This document shows positions 40,887 to 53,228 of a stretch of DNA of 64,000 nucleotides, piece after piece. The DNA comes from Kibdelosporangium persicum (GTDB lineage: Bacteria; Actinomycetota; Actinomycetes; Mycobacteriales; Pseudonocardiaceae), in assembly GCF_013280595.1 (NCBI RefSeq), contig NZ_JAAATY010000005.1, forward strand, positions 248,001 to 312,000, given 5' to 3'. The notes under the pieces are model-generated. The model did not search any database. It saw nothing but the letters and a program-made list of their open reading frames with translations, and was not told the DNA's origin. The position numbers and the translations under genes are program-made. Numbering within the stretch: the first letter of the stretch is position 1; each line of letters begins with the position of its first letter.

Positions 40887-41354
40887 TCAGGCGATGCGGA
40901 ACCGGCGTTGTACGTACGTGCCGAAGTCGTCGGCCAGGCGCTCCGGGCCGCCGCGGTCCGCGGCGCCGGGATCCCAGACGACCACCGGATATTCGCCGTC
41001 CGCGTCGGGCTGGGCGCTGTCGAGGGAGACGATGCCGCCCATCCCGTCGTACTCGATGATGAGCAGCTCAGGCGGGAACCGGTCGTCCGCACGCGTTTCC
41101 AGGGTTTGCGACACCGTGCCGAGCAACCGGTCGCCGCGGGCCGGGGTTCGGTAGACGCCGAGCAGCTCCACGCCATCCCCGTCGCAACTGCCCAGTTCGC
41201 TCAAGAACAGCCGGTACGACGGCGGGAACGTCGCCGCCAGCTCCGCTTCGGCGCGCTCGATGTCCTGGTCGCTCAGTCCGCCGGTGTAGTTGTACTCGTC
41301 GGGGTTGCCGCGCACACGCTCGACGAGTTCGCGCACCGAATCGACACCGCTCAT
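40887..41354 (-). CDS. SMI1/KNR4-family immunity protein
   Basis: 155 residues. The SMI1/KNR4 signature is present: LSDQDIERAEAELAATFPPS followed by YRLFLSELGSCDGDGVELLG, and later PELLIIEYDGMGGIVSLDSA and YPVVVWDPG. This superfamily supplies immunity proteins in many bacterial polymorphic toxin systems. Its ATG overlaps the stop of the RHS toxin gene (ATGA), so it is made together with the toxin and should bind the C-terminal nuclease domain in the cytosol. It is the last gene of the four-gene operon. Confidence 0.9.
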   Translation of the reverse strand: MSGVDSVRELVERVRGNPDEYNYTGGLSDQDIERAEAELAATFPPSYRLFLSELGSCDGDGVELLGVYRTPARGDRLLGTVSQTLETRADDRFPPELLIIEYDGMGGIVSLDSAQPDADGEYPVVVWDPGAADRGGPERLADDFGTYVQRRFRIA

Positions 41355-44300
41355 TTCTTAGGACACCACCCGAATCCCTTGGCCCGTTCCTTCCAGTATT
41401 CCTTCTTCCAGTCGGCGAAGGCATCCCGGTCGATCCCGCTCGGAATGTCCGTTCCCGCCTTCCAGTGCAACGTATTGTACGAACCGCTGCCCTGGTACGC
41501 GCCCTGAGCGAGGTGCATCGACTGGGTCACCTCGGCCAGCGGGCCGTCCTGTGTCTGCAGCATGTGGTGCACGTTGATCGGCTTGTCGTCGGGTCCCATC
41601 GGCGCGAGTCCCTGGATCATCCGCTTGAGGTTCGTGCGCCCGTACTTGTCCTCCGGGGAGACGTAGTTCGGGTCGATCAGATCGTCGCGCTGGTACACGC
41701 GTTGGCCGTTGTAGTCGACCGCCGACCAGAACTTGGTGAAGCCCAGTTGCAACGGCGTGAACGCGGACAGACCGAGCGGGTCGATCCACATCAGCGGGTT
41801 GTCGACGTACCGGTGCGGGTTCGTCGCGGGCCGCAGCCCGAACGGGTCGGGTGACAGATACGCGGCGATGTCCGCGTCGTAGTAGCGCGTCAGGTTGTAG
41901 TGCAGGCCTGTCTCGACGTCATGGTACTGACCGGGGAACCGCAGCGGACAGTCCACGCCCACGTCACCGGTCGCGAAACCCTTGCCCCAGAGGGTGGATG
42001 TTCGGCGCCATGCGATCCGGCCGTCGAGTGTCACCAGTTCGCTCGGCGTTCCGACAAGGTCGGTGACGATCGCGTAGAACCGACGGTCGACTTCCTCCTG
42101 GCTTTGCCAGGTCCGGTGCAGCTGCGTGGCGGCACGGTAGCTACCAGGCTCGTAGTCCCACGTCATCGCCTGCTGGGTCGCGCCCGAGATGGTGCGCTGC
42201 TCGGCGAGCGCGGCACCGTCCCAGCTGAACTCGACCGCTTCGACGATCGATCCGTCGGGGCCAAGGCGTGCTTTGCCGATCCGACGTCCAATTGCGTCGT
42301 AGCGATACGTCCACGACGTACCGTCGGGCGTCACGACACCGATCAGCCGATCGTCGAGGTCCCAGGTGTAACGCCATTCCTGCCGCTGACCGGACAACGT
42401 ACGTCGCAGCGCACGAACGACCCGGCCTTGCTCGTCGTAGTCATAGCTGAGCCGGCCTGCCTGCCGCACGAGCGTCCCCTGCGCCTGGCGGACGCCCTGA
42501 GTCATGTCATCCGGTGCCGGGTAGTTCGCTGCCACGAGATTGCCCATTGCGTCGTAGGCATACGTTTCATACCCGGCGGTGGCGTGCACAGCCGTGACTC
42601 GTCCAGCGGGATCCAGGTCGAACCGCCGATTGCCGCCCAGCTGATCCGTGATCTCAAGCGGCCGGCCGTCGGGGTGGTAGCGGTAGCCACGGGATTGCAG
42701 CCTGCGCTGCGGGCTGCCCGGAGTCACTCCCCATATCTCCTGGCTCACCAGTTGGTCGGCCGGATCCCACGTCTGGGCCAGCGAACCGAGGCCGAACGTC
42801 CGGTTGATCTCCCGCCCGGCCGCGTCGTGCTGGAACGACAGGACGCCGCCCGCGGTGGCCAGCGCTTCCGGCAACCCGACCTCGTCATAGGTCCACGTGG
42901 ACACCGCACCCGACGGCGTGACGCGACGAATACGTTGTCCAGCAAGGTCGTACGTGTGGCTGACCGTCCTGCCGTCGACGGTTTCCGCAACGATCCGGCC
43001 GACCAGATCGTAGGCATACTCCAGCACACTGCCCTGTGTGGCTGCTCGAATCGTTCGACCCGCTCTGTCGTACGCATACGTTGCAATCTGACCGTGGTCA
43101 GCAATGGTTCGTTCGACGCGCCCGACGACGTCACGCTCGTAACGCACGGTTTGACCGGTACCGGTTGTCCTTGCCACCAGCCGATTCGCCGCGTCATGGG
43201 AATACCGGAGTGTCCGATCGTTGAAGTCGGTCTCCTCGACCAGCCGACCGGCAGCATCGAACTCGTATCGCCACCGCAAACCGAGCGGATTGGTCACGCC
43301 GGTCAGCCGCAGCTCATGGTCATGCGTGAACTCGTACCGCGCACCGTCGGGGTCGGTCCGCGTCGCCGGTGTACCGAAAGGACCGTACGTGAATGCCGTC
43401 ACCAACCCGACCGGATTGCGGTACTCGATCATGTTGCCCTCGGCGTCGTAGCGCCACTCTTCGCGTGCGCCGTCGGCCGAGACGCGCCATAACCGCTGTC
43501 CCTCGATGCTCCACCCCAGACGCGTGATCGCCTGCAGTGGGTCGATGGTGGATGTGACCCGCCCGAAGGCATCACGCGTAAGCCGTGCCGTGTCGCCCCT
43601 CGCCGACGTGACACCGACGACAAGACCCGCGGGGTCGGTTTCGTAGCGTTCGACGCGACCGATCGGATCGGTACGTGCGATGCGATGTCCGCGTGAGTCG
43701 TACGTGTATGCGATCACCCCACCCATCGGGTCGGTAGCCGTGAGCAAGTTGCCCCGGTCGTCGTAGGTGTGTCGCCAGATCCCACCAACCGCAGCGACGA
43801 AGTGCACCGGACGGCGGTTCTCGTACTGGATCGTGACGCGGGAACCGTCCGGTTGCTCGATCTCGATCGGGTCGCCGTTGTCATCGAGCGTGTAGCGGAT
43901 CGTGTTTCCGAGCCCGTCGGTGTGGGCCAGAAGCCTGTGATAGCGGTCGTATTCCAGGCCGACCGCGTTGCCGAGCGGGTCGACCACTCGAACCAGGTGA
44001 TTATGTCGATCGTAGTGATACGTCGTGCTCTGCCCCAGAGCGTTGGTGACCGTGGTGACGCGATTCGTTGTGTCATAGGCGAACGTGGACGACAACTCGC
44101 CGTCCTGCCCGTATGCCCGAACCACACGACCATCCGCGCTGTACTCGTACGAGTACTGATAACCGTTGCGGTCGATCCACGCGGTAATTCGATTCGAGAA
44201 GTCGTATTCGTAGCGATACGGAATACCGGTCGAGTCCGTAATCGCCGTCAACCTGCCGCCCTCGTCGTATGCGTACTGCACCAACGGAATGCCGTCCGCG

Positions 44301-45157
44301 GTGCCGTCGAGCAAACGTAAGGCAGTGACTCGTGGCCCGGCCGGGTTGTCCGCACGTTCGACCGCCACCAGGTAGCCGCCCTCGTGATGGACTCGGTCGT
44401 GGGTGAAGGTGATGCGGTTGTCGTTGCGGTCGGTCAGAGCGACGAGCGGCCAGCGGTCGGGCGTCGACTCGTCCGGCGCGAAATGCCGTACCCAGCCGGA
44501 TTGCGGGTCCTCGACACGGTAGACATTCCCGTCCTTGATCAACGGCCAGCGCGCACCCGCGGCCGGCAGCACCGGTTCGGCGTCCGGGTACGGATAGATC
44601 AGCACCTGCGCGTTGTCGCCGATGTACCGGACAGCGTCGCGGGTGAACTCGAGCCGCTGGTCGAGCGTCGAGGACCAGCCCGGCCCGAACAGCCCGCCGT
44701 CGGTGTACCCGGAGGCGTACGCCCGGCGCAGGATCAGCGGCAACACACCGGCGAGCGCCACATCGACCGTATCGGTGATCATTTGCCCGGACACCACGTC
44801 GACCGGGTCGCCGCCCGTGCCGTCGACGCCGTCGTTGCCGTCCGATCGCTGCCCGCCGTTCGGCTCCGTGCCGTTGTCGCCAGGCCTTCCCGGCGTACCA
44901 GGCGTTCCGGACGTCCCGGTCGGGCTGGTGCCGGTGGCGGCGGATGACTGGCCGCCGCCCGGCGGAGTCCCCCGCGACGCCAGGTCGCCGACGGTGTCCT
45001 GCGCACCGGACACGCTGCCGGACGCATCGACCGAACCATGTCGCTGGGCCGGCTTGCCGTCGCCGTCGGACGGTTTTCCGTTGCCGCCGCCGGTTTTCGT
45101 CTTCTTGTGCAGGGCGAACCACACGAGGACGAAGAGCAGCGCGATGAGTGTCCGCAC
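41351..45157 (-). CDS. RHS-repeat polymorphic toxin with C-terminal LHH (HNH/EndoVII) nuclease
   Basis: 1268 residues. One N-terminal membrane helix (LIALLFVLVWFALHKK), a long Gly/Pro/Thr-rich linker to about 110, the DUF6531-type entry GGDPVDVVSGQMITDTVDVA, then about 25 RHS/YD repeats (YEYDFSNRITAWIDRNGYQY and similar) forming a cocoon shell. The RHS core end reads RYYDADIAAYLSPDPFGLRP and the self-cleavage-type motif DPLGLS. The last 137 residues are the toxin tip: GRTNLKRMIQGLAPMG and PINVHHMLQTQDGPLAEVTQ match LHH nucleases of the HNH/Endo VII superfamily. Export by a type VII system is inferred from the EspC- and WXG-like genes upstream. Its stop overlaps the immunity gene. Confidence 0.93.
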   Translation of the reverse strand: MRTLIALLFVLVWFALHKKTKTGGGNGKPSDGDGKPAQRHGSVDASGSVSGAQDTVGDLASRGTPPGGGQSSAATGTSPTGTSGTPGTPGRPGDNGTEPNGGQRSDGNDGVDGTGGDPVDVVSGQMITDTVDVALAGVLPLILRRAYASGYTDGGLFGPGWSSTLDQRLEFTRDAVRYIGDNAQVLIYPYPDAEPVLPAAGARWPLIKDGNVYRVEDPQSGWVRHFAPDESTPDRWPLVALTDRNDNRITFTHDRVHHEGGYLVAVERADNPAGPRVTALRLLDGTADGIPLVQYAYDEGGRLTAITDSTGIPYRYEYDFSNRITAWIDRNGYQYSYEYSADGRVVRAYGQDGELSSTFAYDTTNRVTTVTNALGQSTTYHYDRHNHLVRVVDPLGNAVGLEYDRYHRLLAHTDGLGNTIRYTLDDNGDPIEIEQPDGSRVTIQYENRRPVHFVAAVGGIWRHTYDDRGNLLTATDPMGGVIAYTYDSRGHRIARTDPIGRVERYETDPAGLVVGVTSARGDTARLTRDAFGRVTSTIDPLQAITRLGWSIEGQRLWRVSADGAREEWRYDAEGNMIEYRNPVGLVTAFTYGPFGTPATRTDPDGARYEFTHDHELRLTGVTNPLGLRWRYEFDAAGRLVEETDFNDRTLRYSHDAANRLVARTTGTGQTVRYERDVVGRVERTIADHGQIATYAYDRAGRTIRAATQGSVLEYAYDLVGRIVAETVDGRTVSHTYDLAGQRIRRVTPSGAVSTWTYDEVGLPEALATAGGVLSFQHDAAGREINRTFGLGSLAQTWDPADQLVSQEIWGVTPGSPQRRLQSRGYRYHPDGRPLEITDQLGGNRRFDLDPAGRVTAVHATAGYETYAYDAMGNLVAANYPAPDDMTQGVRQAQGTLVRQAGRLSYDYDEQGRVVRALRRTLSGQRQEWRYTWDLDDRLIGVVTPDGTSWTYRYDAIGRRIGKARLGPDGSIVEAVEFSWDGAALAEQRTISGATQQAMTWDYEPGSYRAATQLHRTWQSQEEVDRRFYAIVTDLVGTPSELVTLDGRIAWRRTSTLWGKGFATGDVGVDCPLRFPGQYHDVETGLHYNLTRYYDADIAAYLSPDPFGLRPATNPHRYVDNPLMWIDPLGLSAFTPLQLGFTKFWSAVDYNGQRVYQRDDLIDPNYVSPEDKYGRTNLKRMIQGLAPMGPDDKPINVHHMLQTQDGPLAEVTQSMHLAQGAYQGSGSYNTLHWKAGTDIPSGIDRDAFADWKKEYWKERAKGFGWCPKK

Positions 45158-45163
45158 GGCCGC

Positions 45164-45868
45164 CTACCCGTCGAGGAGCTTGGAGAGGTTGGTCAGGCTG
45201 TCGATCAGCGCCATGGTGTAGGTCATGATCCGGCCGGCCCACTTGACCACCGCGGCGGCGATCTGCGCGGCGATCACCGGGATCGTCACCACGAAGATGG
45301 CCTCAGCCACCCAGACGATCACCCGTGCCACCAGGTCGGCGATCAGGTCGCGGACGATCTCACGGGTCAGCTCGACCAGCCCGCCCGCGCCTTCGGTGGC
45401 CGAGGCCATCGCGGCGGAGATCGCGCCGAGACCACCGATCGCCTCGACGTTGTTGGCCATCAGCGTCTGGTACGCGTCCGCCGCCGTGCCTTTCCAGTCC
45501 GGGAGGTCGGTCTTGAGGTGGTTGGCCAGATCGGTGGACATGCCGTGCAGTTCGGTCGCCATGTTGTTCCACGTCGCGGCGTGTGACCTGACCACGTCCG
45601 GCTTCCCGGTCAGCTCGTCGAGCATCTGCCGCAGGGGCTCGAAGTACTCCATGGCCCAGCCGATGCCGTTGGCCAGCAGGGCACTGATCGGGTCCATCAC
45701 CGTCGCGGCGACTTCGAGGCCCAGCCCGGCGCCGGCCAGGACGTCGTCCACCCAGCCTTCGCTCCTGATCGCGTCGACCAGGCCCTCGAAGCTTTCGGCC
45801 GTGCCCGCCCCGGTCCACGCCTCCCGGGTGGACTCGACCGGCGCGACCAGGGAGTTGGGTTCGCTCAC
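45164..45868 (-). CDS. WXG100-like type VII secretion-associated protein
   Basis: 234 residues. An N-terminal helical part is followed by a WXG-type hairpin: SHAATWNNMATELHGMSTDL, then LPDWKGTAADAYQTLMANN with the W-x-G turn, then EAIGGLGAISAAMASATEGA. The C-terminal third is strongly hydrophobic (VRDLIADLVARVIVWVAEAI, FVVTIPVIAAQIAAAVVKWA), so it may insert in a membrane. The layout recalls the PPE-like or long WXG carriers that escort toxins to ESX-type machines. It overlaps the EspC-like gene by 4 bp and is 6 bp from the RHS toxin. No EccC or other machine component is in the window. Confidence 0.78.
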   Translation of the reverse strand: MSEPNSLVAPVESTREAWTGAGTAESFEGLVDAIRSEGWVDDVLAGAGLGLEVAATVMDPISALLANGIGWAMEYFEPLRQMLDELTGKPDVVRSHAATWNNMATELHGMSTDLANHLKTDLPDWKGTAADAYQTLMANNVEAIGGLGAISAAMASATEGAGGLVELTREIVRDLIADLVARVIVWVAEAIFVVTIPVIAAQIAAAVVKWAGRIMTYTMALIDSLTNLSKLLDG

Positions 45869-46185
45869 CGCGCACCTCCGCCGTCGGCGGAGTTGAGCAG
45901 ACTGACGTTCCCACTCTCCCGGGACTCGTACTGCTGGGCGGAGTCACGCAGTGCTTTCGCAACGAGCAGCAGGTTGTTCTCCACCTGCGCTATCAACTCG
46001 TCCTGCCGGGTGTGCCGTCCCTCGAGGATGCCCGAAATCCACCCGCACAGCAGTCCGTACGCCTGGTCGTCCTGCGCGATGTGCCCACTCGCGCCTTTGA
46101 CCGCGGCGAACCGTTCCCGTATTGCGTCCACGTGATCGGCGTGGGCGCGCAACTGCGCGACATTGACGTTGTAGCCATCGGGCAT
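45865..46185 (-). CDS. EspC-like type VII secretion target
   Basis: 106 residues. Pattern of the ESX-1 EspC family: NVAQLRAHADHVDAIRERFA at the N-terminus, DDQAYGLLCGWISGILEGRH with the turn, and a second helix VENNLLLVAKALRDSAQQYE, whose Tyr fits the YxxxD/E export signal (YESRE). First gene of the operon, preceded by 96 bp of non-coding DNA that must carry the promoter. It probably pairs with the WXG-like protein encoded next, which it overlaps (ATGA). Confidence 0.82.
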   Translation of the reverse strand: MPDGYNVNVAQLRAHADHVDAIRERFAAVKGASGHIAQDDQAYGLLCGWISGILEGRHTRQDELIAQVENNLLLVAKALRDSAQQYESRESGNVSLLNSADGGGAR

Positions 46186-46281
46186 GGCTCACCCCCAGTC
46201 CGTTCGCCTCCCGTTCAGCAGGCCTCAGCGTAACGGCCCAAGGCCTGCGGTAACGGTGAAACGAAGGCAATCGCCGGTGCG

Positions 46282-47340
46282 TCAGCGGCGGGCGCGGACC
46301 GCCGCCGCCAGCTGCTGGACCGTCGATTCCGTCGTGTCCCAAGCCATGCAGGCATCGGTGACGGACTGGCCGCGAGTCATGTTCGGACCGACGTCCTGAC
46401 GTCCGGCGACCAGGAAGCTCTCCAACATCACCCCGGCGATGCCGCGCTCGCCACCGGCGATCCGGGCGGCGATGTCGCCGGCCACCACCGGTTGCCGGGC
46501 GTGGTCCTTGCCGCTGTTGCCGTGGCTGGCGTCGATGATCACACGCTCGGGCAGTCCGGCGGCACGCAGGCGGCCGAGAGCCGCGGCGACGTGTTCCGCA
46601 CTGTAGTTCGGTCCGTTCGCCCCGCCCCGCAGGACGAGGTGGCAGTCGGGGTTGCCCGCCGTGCTGACCAACGCGGCCAGCCCGTCGGCGTTGACGCCCA
46701 TGAACACGTGCGGCGCCGCGGCGGCGCGGATGCCGTCGACGGCGTCGGCGACCTCACCGGAGGTGGTGTTCTTGATCCCCACCGGCATGGACAGGCCGCT
46801 GCACAGCTGCCGGTGTGTCTGGCTGGCGGCGGTCCGTGCGCCGATCGAGCCCCAGGCGACGAGGTCGGTGAGGAACTGCGGAGTGATCGGGTCGAGGAAC
46901 TCGCAGCCGACCGGCAGGCCCAGTGCCAGCACGTCCAGCAGCAGGCGGCGGGCCAGCCGCAGACCGGTGTTGACGTCGAAGGTGCCGTCCAGGTGCGGGT
47001 CGTTGATCAGTCCCTTCCACCCGACCGTGGTGCGCGGCTTCTCGAAGTACGCGCGCATGACGATCCGCAGCTCGTCGGAGACCGAGGCGCTGAGCCGCGC
47101 GAGCCGGTGCGCGTACTCCAGCGCGGCGTCGGTGTCGTGGATGGAGCAAGGTCCCACCACGACAAGGAGACGGTCGTCGCGGCCGTCGAGGATGTCGACG
47201 GCCTCCGCGCGTGCCTGGGCGACCGTGGCCGCCATCGTTTCGTGCGCGGGTAGCTCGTGGCGCAGCAGGGCCGGCGACAGCAACGGGCTGAACTGGTTGA
47301 TGCGGTGGTTGTCCTGGGCGACTGCCGTGACAACTGACAT
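46282..47340 (-). CDS. aroF: 3-deoxy-7-phosphoheptulonate (DAHP) synthase, class I
   Basis: 352 residues. Class I AroF/G/H signatures: VVVGPCSIHDTDAALEYAHR, RAYFEKPRTTVGWKGLINDP, GCEFLDPITPQFLTDLVAWG, IGARTAASQTHRQ, and IIDASHGNSGKDHARQPVVA with the metal-binding His. It makes DAHP from phosphoenolpyruvate and erythrose-4-phosphate, the first step of aromatic amino acid synthesis. Most actinomycetes rely on a class II enzyme, so this is an additional, probably end-product-controlled form. The SD (GAGAGGAC) sits inside a hairpin loop and a 21-codon aromatic leader ORF precedes it. The 3' end has a decayed duplicate at 40710-40770. Confidence 0.93.
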   Translation of the reverse strand: MSVVTAVAQDNHRINQFSPLLSPALLRHELPAHETMAATVAQARAEAVDILDGRDDRLLVVVGPCSIHDTDAALEYAHRLARLSASVSDELRIVMRAYFEKPRTTVGWKGLINDPHLDGTFDVNTGLRLARRLLLDVLALGLPVGCEFLDPITPQFLTDLVAWGSIGARTAASQTHRQLCSGLSMPVGIKNTTSGEVADAVDGIRAAAAPHVFMGVNADGLAALVSTAGNPDCHLVLRGGANGPNYSAEHVAAALGRLRAAGLPERVIIDASHGNSGKDHARQPVVAGDIAARIAGGERGIAGVMLESFLVAGRQDVGPNMTRGQSVTDACMAWDTTESTVQQLAAAVRARR

Positions 47341-47371
47341 CGGGGCGTCCTCTCATGGCCGAGCCGCCCCG
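47341..47371 (-). promoter_or_regulatory. Hairpin enclosing the aroF ribosome binding site
   Basis: CGGGGCG (47341-47347) pairs perfectly with CGCCCCG (47365-47371). The loop holds the SD (47347-47354) and the stem abuts the aroF ATG at 47340, so folding should block initiation. A second stem, CGAGCCGG (47382-47389) with CCGGCTCG (47398-47405), competes: 47399-47405 can instead pair with CGAGCCG at 47360-47366, which would open the SD hairpin. Confidence 0.6.
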
Positions 47372-47416
47372 CGATACCCGCCGAGCCGGCTCGATGTCCG
47401 GCTCGAAGGTGGATGG

Positions 47417-47482
47417 TCAGCGCAGCGGATCGCCCGCCGACCCACTCCGGGCCGGGCGTCCAAACCAATACTGGCGCTGCAT
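47417..47482 (-). CDS. Aromatic leader peptide upstream of aroF
   Basis: A 21-codon ORF beginning MQRQYWFG, with Tyr, Trp and Phe in consecutive codons, ends 76 bp before the aroF start. AGGGTGG just upstream could be its SD, or TAGGGT could be a -10 giving a near-leaderless message. The three aromatic residues are the end products of the pathway that aroF opens. Ribosome slowing there when any one is scarce would change pairing of the two downstream stems. Too short for standard gene calling; function inferred from composition, order and position. Confidence 0.75.
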   Translation of the reverse strand: MQRQYWFGRPARSGSAGDPLR

Positions 47483-47584
47483 GCCGCCCACCCTAGCAGA
47501 GCGTACGGTGGGCGCGTCGGTCGACGCGGTTTGTCGCAGTCCTTGCGTCAAAGAGCCGCCACTTGGTGTGGCGCAGCTCGCTTT

Positions 47585-47601
47585 TTGTAGGTTCCCTACA
47601 A
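47585..47601. promoter_or_regulatory. Palindromic operator upstream of the fused carboxylase gene
   Basis: TTGTAGG-TTC-CCTACAA is a perfect 7+3+7 palindrome in the aroF-carboxylase intergenic region, 138 bp before the carboxylase start and 103 bp before the aroF leader ORF. No regulator gene is adjacent, so the binding protein is unknown; GntR- and TetR-type fatty-acid regulators use sites of this shape. Confidence 0.6.
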
Positions 47602-47738
47602 CCCCACGGCTCCGGCATGCGCGATGCGGCACATAGGTGTACTCGCCGGTAATCGAGCAGGGTAGAGAGCAGGTGCAGGCGACGCTCCGGGACCCGGACG
47701 TCGCCTTCTGTGCGTGGGTACTTGGGAGGCTCAAACCG

Positions 47739-53228
<5,490 letters not shown>

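Follow-up and report, generated by a model that had tools for sequence, protein, structure and literature searches.

A conserved Tyr-Trp-Phe leader peptide and a candidate translational attenuator upstream of the class I aroF gene of Kibdelosporangium persicum

Introduction

The step at which carbon is committed to the aromatic amino acids, and to many of the antibiotics of actinobacteria, is catalysed by 3-deoxy-7-phosphoheptulonate (DAHP) synthase. The leader described here, upstream of a gene for this enzyme, is of a kind already known, ribosome-mediated attenuation, and the nearest published case is the aroR leader of Corynebacterium glutamicum, the transcription of which is leaderless. 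In the translational attenuators of erm and cat genes, a ribosome stalled on the leader rearranges helices and frees the Shine-Dalgarno sequence (SD) of the main gene, and in ermA the helices form a multi-segment chain. These attenuators answer to antibiotics and not to tRNA charging, and their likeness to the present locus lies in the proposed stall-driven release of the SD.

The aroR leader precedes the aroF DAHP synthase gene of C. glutamicum (Neshat et al. 2014; cited through PMC11802643, PMC4046766 and PMC8079986). According to the passages of PMC11802643 that deal with it, it carries Phe-Tyr-Phe, with no Trp mentioned, and it controls transcription, the availability of Tyr being without effect. 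In Streptomyces and Corynebacterium, the terminators of the trp attenuators are GC-rich and a U-tract follows them (Seliverstov et al. 2005, PMC1262725). Passages of the same study describe an SD-sequestering hairpin in actinobacterial ileS T-boxes, at the place where other bacteria have a terminator, and state that no conserved RNA structures were seen before actinobacterial phenylalanine or tyrosine operons. For Streptomyces lividans, eight leaders are given in passages of PMC8079986, none of them before aroF, and the excerpts of PMC12125101 and PMC4833913 contain nothing further on aroF leaders. Across the titles, abstract openings and passages of the open-licence literature, no account was found of such a leader before aroF in Pseudonocardiaceae or of an aroF attenuator that acts on translation.

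The locus studied here lies in a 64,000 nt stretch of the K. persicum genome (contig NZ_JAAATY010000005.1, positions 248,001 to 312,000), hereafter called the window. As in C. glutamicum, a leader peptide with aromatic codons precedes an aroF DAHP synthase gene; compared by description only, the window differs in having a Trp codon and a candidate relay to the SD, no relay being described in the passages on aroR. With the actinobacterial trp attenuators it shares an end-product-codon leader and alternative helices ahead of a biosynthetic gene (PMC1262725), but no terminator was found in the leader of the window, whereas those of Streptomyces and Corynebacterium have a terminator and U-tract. 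The replacement of a terminator by an SD hairpin is a likeness to the ileS T-boxes, which sense tRNA directly and without a leader peptide (PMC1262725). The terminator-free translational variant, with its relay, breadth and evolution, is new as far as our literature search reached.

Materials and Methods

The comparison covered 225 other class I aroF loci (80 from among the matches listed, 29, 29, 60 picked from a larger table, and 27), in which some species are present twice, from two collections. An ORF of 12–34 codons was called as a leader if two or more aromatic residues stood near one another in it, all three kinds not being required; a TAnnnT box ahead of its start and a GAGCC-like motif behind its stop raised the score. 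Leaders in which a pattern found a terminator-like hairpin between strands A and B (Table 1) were classed as T-type, the U-tract being weak in a few of them (L152, L156, L159), and those in which it found none as N-type. There were 145 N-type entries, counting the window and its own copy (L081), and reduction by similarity left 110 sequences. From these, 71 were chosen for alignment with MAFFT and 95 entered the duplex tests, in which RNAduplex was used to compare each strand and its own partner with partners exchanged between genomes (native versus swapped). All 110 were folded in two states, with the ribosome at the leader stop or stalled at the first aromatic codon. The AroF tree was a quick IQ-TREE run with SH-aLRT support on 155 proteins (86 N, 45 T, 3 long-loop and 21 leaderless), from which the 60 loci of the picked set and near-identical proteins were left out.

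Results and Discussion

The leader ORF and the elements upstream of aroF

The features of the locus are given in Table 1. An ORF of 21 codons with consecutive Tyr, Trp and Phe codons was reported in the preliminary description of this DNA, and it is indeed present ahead of aroF, on the minus strand. As in ribosome-mediated attenuators generally, codons for the end products of the pathway (YWF) are thus placed before the gene for its DAHP synthase. From the spacing of the TAGGGT box to the leader ATG, the transcript is expected to be leaderless. Between 47200 and 47800 of the window, a scan detected no sigma-70 consensus promoter, and no terminator-like site was found, so that the intrinsic terminator that stands between leader and gene in trp-type attenuators was not seen here. 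A search of Rfam with 46000-48500 gave two irrelevant matches far below the gathering scores, neither of them in the leader.

Table 1. Features of the aroF leader region, with positions numbered along the window.
Feature	Position	Strand	Sequence, partner or evidence
-10-like box TAGGGT, 7 nt 5' of leader ATG	47490..47495	minus	sequence
Leader ORF, 21 codons	47482-47417	minus	MQRQYWFGRPARSGSAGDPLR, followed by the stop; ORF translation
Sensing codons TAT TGG TTT (Tyr-Trp-Phe), codons 5-7	47462..47470	minus	sequence
Element 2, leader codons 10-14 and first base of codon 15	47440..47455	minus	CCGGCCCGGAGTGGGT; partner, element 3
Element 3, stop-proximal strand and A	47398..47414	minus	partners, element 2 or B
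A (part of element 3)	47405-47398	minus	CGAGCCGG
Element 4 (B)	47382..47393	minus	3' part for A, 5' part for C
B, 5' part	47393-47387	minus	CGAGCCG; pairs with C
B, 3' part	47389-47382	minus	CCGGCTCG; pairs with A
Element 5 (C)	47360..47371	minus	47366-47360 with B; 47371-47365 with the SD-side arm
Element 6 (D)	47341..47354	minus	SD GAGAGGA (47354-47348) and arm CGCCCCG (47347-47341)
aroF, class I 3-deoxy-7-phosphoheptulonate (DAHP) synthase	47340-46282	minus	TIGR00034, 493 bits, E 3.3e-148

The aroF SD is enclosed in a hairpin in the putative off state, as in erm-type translational attenuators, and the 7-bp stem that had been noticed closing over it was recovered. This stem (47371-47365/47347-47341) abuts the aroF start codon and holds the SD (47354-47348) in its loop, where GAG of the SD pairs with CUC inside the hairpin. 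The predicted energy is -19.6 kcal/mol, reached by 5 of 200 shuffled sequences, and for the stretch with elements 2 and 3 (47456-47395) one shuffle in 200 folded as well. The leader of the window as a whole folds only modestly better than its shuffles (z -1.98, 8/200), and it is therefore the comparative evidence that carries the case.

Conservation of the leader and its codons

Leaders with the same layout were called in 198 of the 225 other loci, and comprise 143 N-type, 51 T-type and four that were assigned by hand after reading: L060, with a terminator, and L078, L092 and L093, which have a long loop and are without one. The structure tests were made without the 27 loci in which no leader was called. 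Several of these are paralogues that share about 60% identity or less, while L054, L058, L197 and L088 seemingly have remnants or an unusual start. L054 and L058, both from Saccharopolyspora, keep A-, B- and C-like sequences upstream of aroF with no leader ORF called, and their leader is perhaps decayed or differently started. When 20 further loci were read, 12 were found to have a leader (ORFs in L233 and L234 were rejected, and the inclusion of L242 is doubtful).

There are 135 distinct leader ORFs, the one in the window included (94 N-type and 41 T-type). Within residues 2–13, Tyr, Trp and Phe all occur in 118 of these, 13 being without Trp and four without Tyr. This codon content suggests that the three aromatic amino acids may be sensed simultaneously, as was proposed earlier. 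A TAnnnT box is found 6–8 nt before the start in 135/135, although the box contributed to the choice of starts. The last Phe codon of the leader is UUU in 131 of 135, as against only 4 of the 858 Phe codons in the aroF homologues of the longer loci. Since UUU is so scarce in these genes and yet nearly universal at this place, it is a rare codon that marks the sensing position, and may heighten the sensitivity of the sensor.

Covariation between the paired strands

Native partners were clearly superior to swapped ones for three of the helices. For elements 2 and 3 (2:3), in a comparison that is free of register, the difference was z -7.4 (0/5000), and z -4.0 (0/5000) when partners were exchanged within groups of similar leaders; on fixed alignment columns covariation was not above that of shuffles, probably because the length of the linker varies. 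The 5' half of B with C gave z -8.5 (0/5000; within groups z -5.1, 0/5000), and C with D gave z -7.6 (0/5000; within groups z -6.2, 0/5000). The alignment of 71 sequences tells the same for B:C, with 64 double-change cells against 29.3 in shuffles (0/500). In the variable triplets of B and C, 164 of 192 cells are canonical (64/71 rows, the other seven being unscorable), compared with a shuffled mean of 122.8 (sd 4.3; 0/10,000), and there are 12 distinct fully paired combinations, for example AAG/CTT, GGA/TCC, GAA/TTC and CAG/CTG.

The A:B helix is conserved in another way. It is 98.1% paired and almost invariant over the 71 sequences, five of its eight pairs being constant and three varying on one side only, so covariation is absent, and native partners did no better than swapped ones (z +2.1). 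The four helices overlap in a chain: A is common to 2:3 and A:B, the CCGG of B is common to A:B and B:C, and C is common to B:C and C:D. Neighbours in the chain are thus mutually exclusive, and one of the helices (2:3) uses leader codons, as is usual in ribosome-mediated attenuators. A direct pairing of element 2 with B or with C was also considered and discarded, there being no native advantage for either (z +1.3 and +0.4).

In the T-type and long-loop relatives, B:C is present (z -4.5, 0/5000; 33 of 55), and 2:3 is plain by eye in sequences that differ from one another. Free swaps of 2:3 gave z -7.8 there (30 of 43 distinct rows), and swaps within small groups of T-type relatives gave z +0.3. 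Covariation in the stems and conservation of the aromatic codons at orthologous loci were the two tests on which the preliminary description had staked its case beforehand. With B:C, C:D and 2:3 covarying and the leader codons remaining aromatic, both were passed, and the interpretation offered there is partly supported.

A proposed relay to the aroF ribosome binding site

We consider it probable that the leader is an attenuator of aroF translation and works by a relay of alternative helices. The leader would be translated, probably from a leaderless transcript. While charged aromatic tRNAs are plentiful, the ribosome would run through the leader and element 2 would be unavailable, in which case A:B (3:4) and C:D (5:6) would form, the SD would be hidden and aroF would be off. 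The footprint of a ribosome stalled at aromatic codons 5–7 would end at or just before element 2 (codons 10–15). Element 2 could then pair with element 3 (2:3), drawing off A and leaving B free for C (4:5), whereby the SD would be freed and aroF turned on. Transcription produces the elements in the order 2, 3, 4, 5, 6, so that the state formed would be decided by whether element 2 is available. Judged from sequence comparison, the leader is real and widely conserved, and the translational relay is well supported by covariation and weakly by folding.

The window RNA, when ended at 47320, is predicted to flip from A:B and C:D to 2:3 and B:C, among the mask lengths tried, only if 22–28 nt of the leader are masked. 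For a footprint of 12 nt counted from the A site, this corresponds to Tyr or Trp in that site, and a ribosome stalled at Phe, with 30 nt masked, is predicted to give the OFF state; with a footprint of 10 nt it would fit all three aromatic codons. The flip depends on the 3' end chosen, being partial at best with 47330 and absent with 47310 or 47300, and with 27 nt masked the full ON structure was the minimum with one of the five 3' ends tried. In the predicted ON structure the SD pairs with aroF coding sequence (0.27 unpaired versus 0.57). Among the 110 N-type sequences, the stalled state has 2:3 reaching 4 pairs in 67, and A:B falling by at least 0.3 in 41; C:D loses at least two pairs in 39 and gains in one, while B:C gains at least two in 18. 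Mean SD accessibility was the same in the two states (0.52 and 0.52; Wilcoxon p 0.077). Equilibrium folding thus backs the switch weakly, and the two states may lie near each other in energy, with the order of folding choosing between them.

Alternative explanations

Other readings of the locus differ in how much of this evidence they can accommodate. Transcriptional attenuation, in which stalled or completed translation of the leader would govern termination, either by Rho or at a weak intrinsic site, and the SD hairpin would play a secondary part, is unlikely but deserves some weight: a terminator-like hairpin occurs in the same leader of the 51 T-type loci, the aroR leader of C. glutamicum is described as affecting aroF transcription (in passages of PMC11802643), and an untranslated aroF with a hidden SD would presumably favour Rho. 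The lack of a terminator-like site in the searched part of the window speaks against it, as does the covariation of C:D and B:C, the helices around the SD, in relatives that are free of terminators. The switch of the preliminary description was of a different design, A alternating between B and C, with A:C opening the SD hairpin. Its premise is sound in so far as, in the window, strand 47405-47399 is complementary both to 47388-47382 and to 47366-47360, because the 5' half of B repeats A. Yet among the relatives C changes along with B and D, and A hardly changes at all; a single double-change cell was counted for A:C (296/500 shuffles are as high), and native partners of A:C are no better than swapped ones (z +1.6, within groups +0.8), which makes a switch of this kind very improbable.

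Translation coupling, with re-initiation at aroF after the leader, or a functional small peptide whose C-terminal half itself acts, could account for the fact that this half of the peptide is conserved too. Leader start and leader end also pair better natively than when swapped (z -4.0), though this is an RNA feature; in the leader stretch that lies beyond the Phe codon, the two halves pair with each other weakly (z -2.2, 57/3000). We regard these explanations as improbable, given that 76 nt separate the leader stop from the aroF start in the window and that the C-terminal conservation is largely explained by element 2, which changes in step with element 3. That a chance ORF and chance hairpins have come together in a GC-rich intergenic region would agree with the modest fold of the whole leader, but it is refuted by conservation (198/225 loci, with covariation, and a single copy at aroF) and can be given next to no credence.

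Terminator forms and a possible origin of the translational variant

The translational relay that we favour for the window has relatives of another form. A terminator-like hairpin with a U-tract lies between A and B in L036, L044, L057, L073 and other T-type loci, and 2:3 abuts the terminator in T-type leaders. The contrast with terminator-type attenuators that was drawn earlier for this locus accordingly holds for the clade of the window, in which itself none was found, and not for the 51 related leaders with such a hairpin. Control of the T-type terminator by 2:3 was tried as an explanation and rejected: of the 55 T-type and long-loop loci that were folded, 22 had the terminator stem in their minimum-energy structure whichever state was assumed, and folding found no pairing in T-type leaders that would prevent the terminator.

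On the AroF tree, N and T rows differ by one change of state. All 86 N rows, together with three leaderless rows, make up one side of a branch with a support of 99; the support is 44 if L078, L092 and L093 are added to this side, and 97 if the T rows L045 and L090 are added as well. Rooted on the leaderless paralogue L107, which has a long branch, the tree has T-type clades preceding the N clade on the path to the window. A single conversion from the terminator form to the translational form would fit this order, with the long-loop leaders, whose placement is weakly supported, as possible intermediates. For the family as a whole we tentatively propose, at chances a little short of even, that all three aromatic tRNAs are read simultaneously through a five-segment relay to the SD, and that one clade, in a single conversion, lost the terminator lying between elements 3 and 4 and became purely translational, the long-loop, terminator-free leaders being possible intermediates. 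The converted clade is taken by us to consist of Pseudonocardiaceae, some Mycobacteriales and Asanoa.

If signals from Tyr, Trp and Phe are pooled by a conserved leader, it becomes understandable that the first step can be controlled without a dedicated repressor, and in antibiotic producers the aroF leader would be a target through which the supply of precursors might be deregulated. If the proposal is true, it is also a case of a transcription attenuator that turned translational with its sensor unchanged.

Dedication to aroF and genome context

A covariance model of the leader has one match in the genome of the window, before aroF. In 60 relatives there were matches in 18 genomes, at one place each, and all 16 matches with E <1e-6, the window's own included, lie directly before class I aroF; two were weak (G041 and G042, E 0.004–0.009). 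A pattern search matched 13 of the 60 genomes, 12 at aroF and one (G002) elsewhere, the latter probably by chance.

Seven other genomes of the genus gave no match to the covariance model; class I aroF is distant in four of them (53–61% identity) and absent in three. On the tree, the AroF rows closest to the window are those of G158 and Asanoa, within a supported clade of four rows, and the aroF-leader unit may have moved horizontally. The genome of the window also has class II DAHP synthases (PF01474), two of the matches being long and a third one split in two (G000:C12:214788-216095, G000:C18:103451-104737 and G000:C1:448400-449518), so aroF is one of several first-step enzymes.

Divergent from the leader is an ORF of 1863 aa (47637-53228, plus strand), the listed start of which is 155 nt from the leader start codon; its N-terminal part is that of a biotin carboxylase, and it also has a region resembling a biotin carrier. 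Immediately downstream of aroF, the minus strand (41351-46185) encodes a protein with Rhs repeats and, at the C-terminus, an LHH nuclease domain (PF14411), preceded by WXG100-like and EspC-like small proteins, an arrangement that resembles a polymorphic-toxin cassette of the kind used between bacteria.
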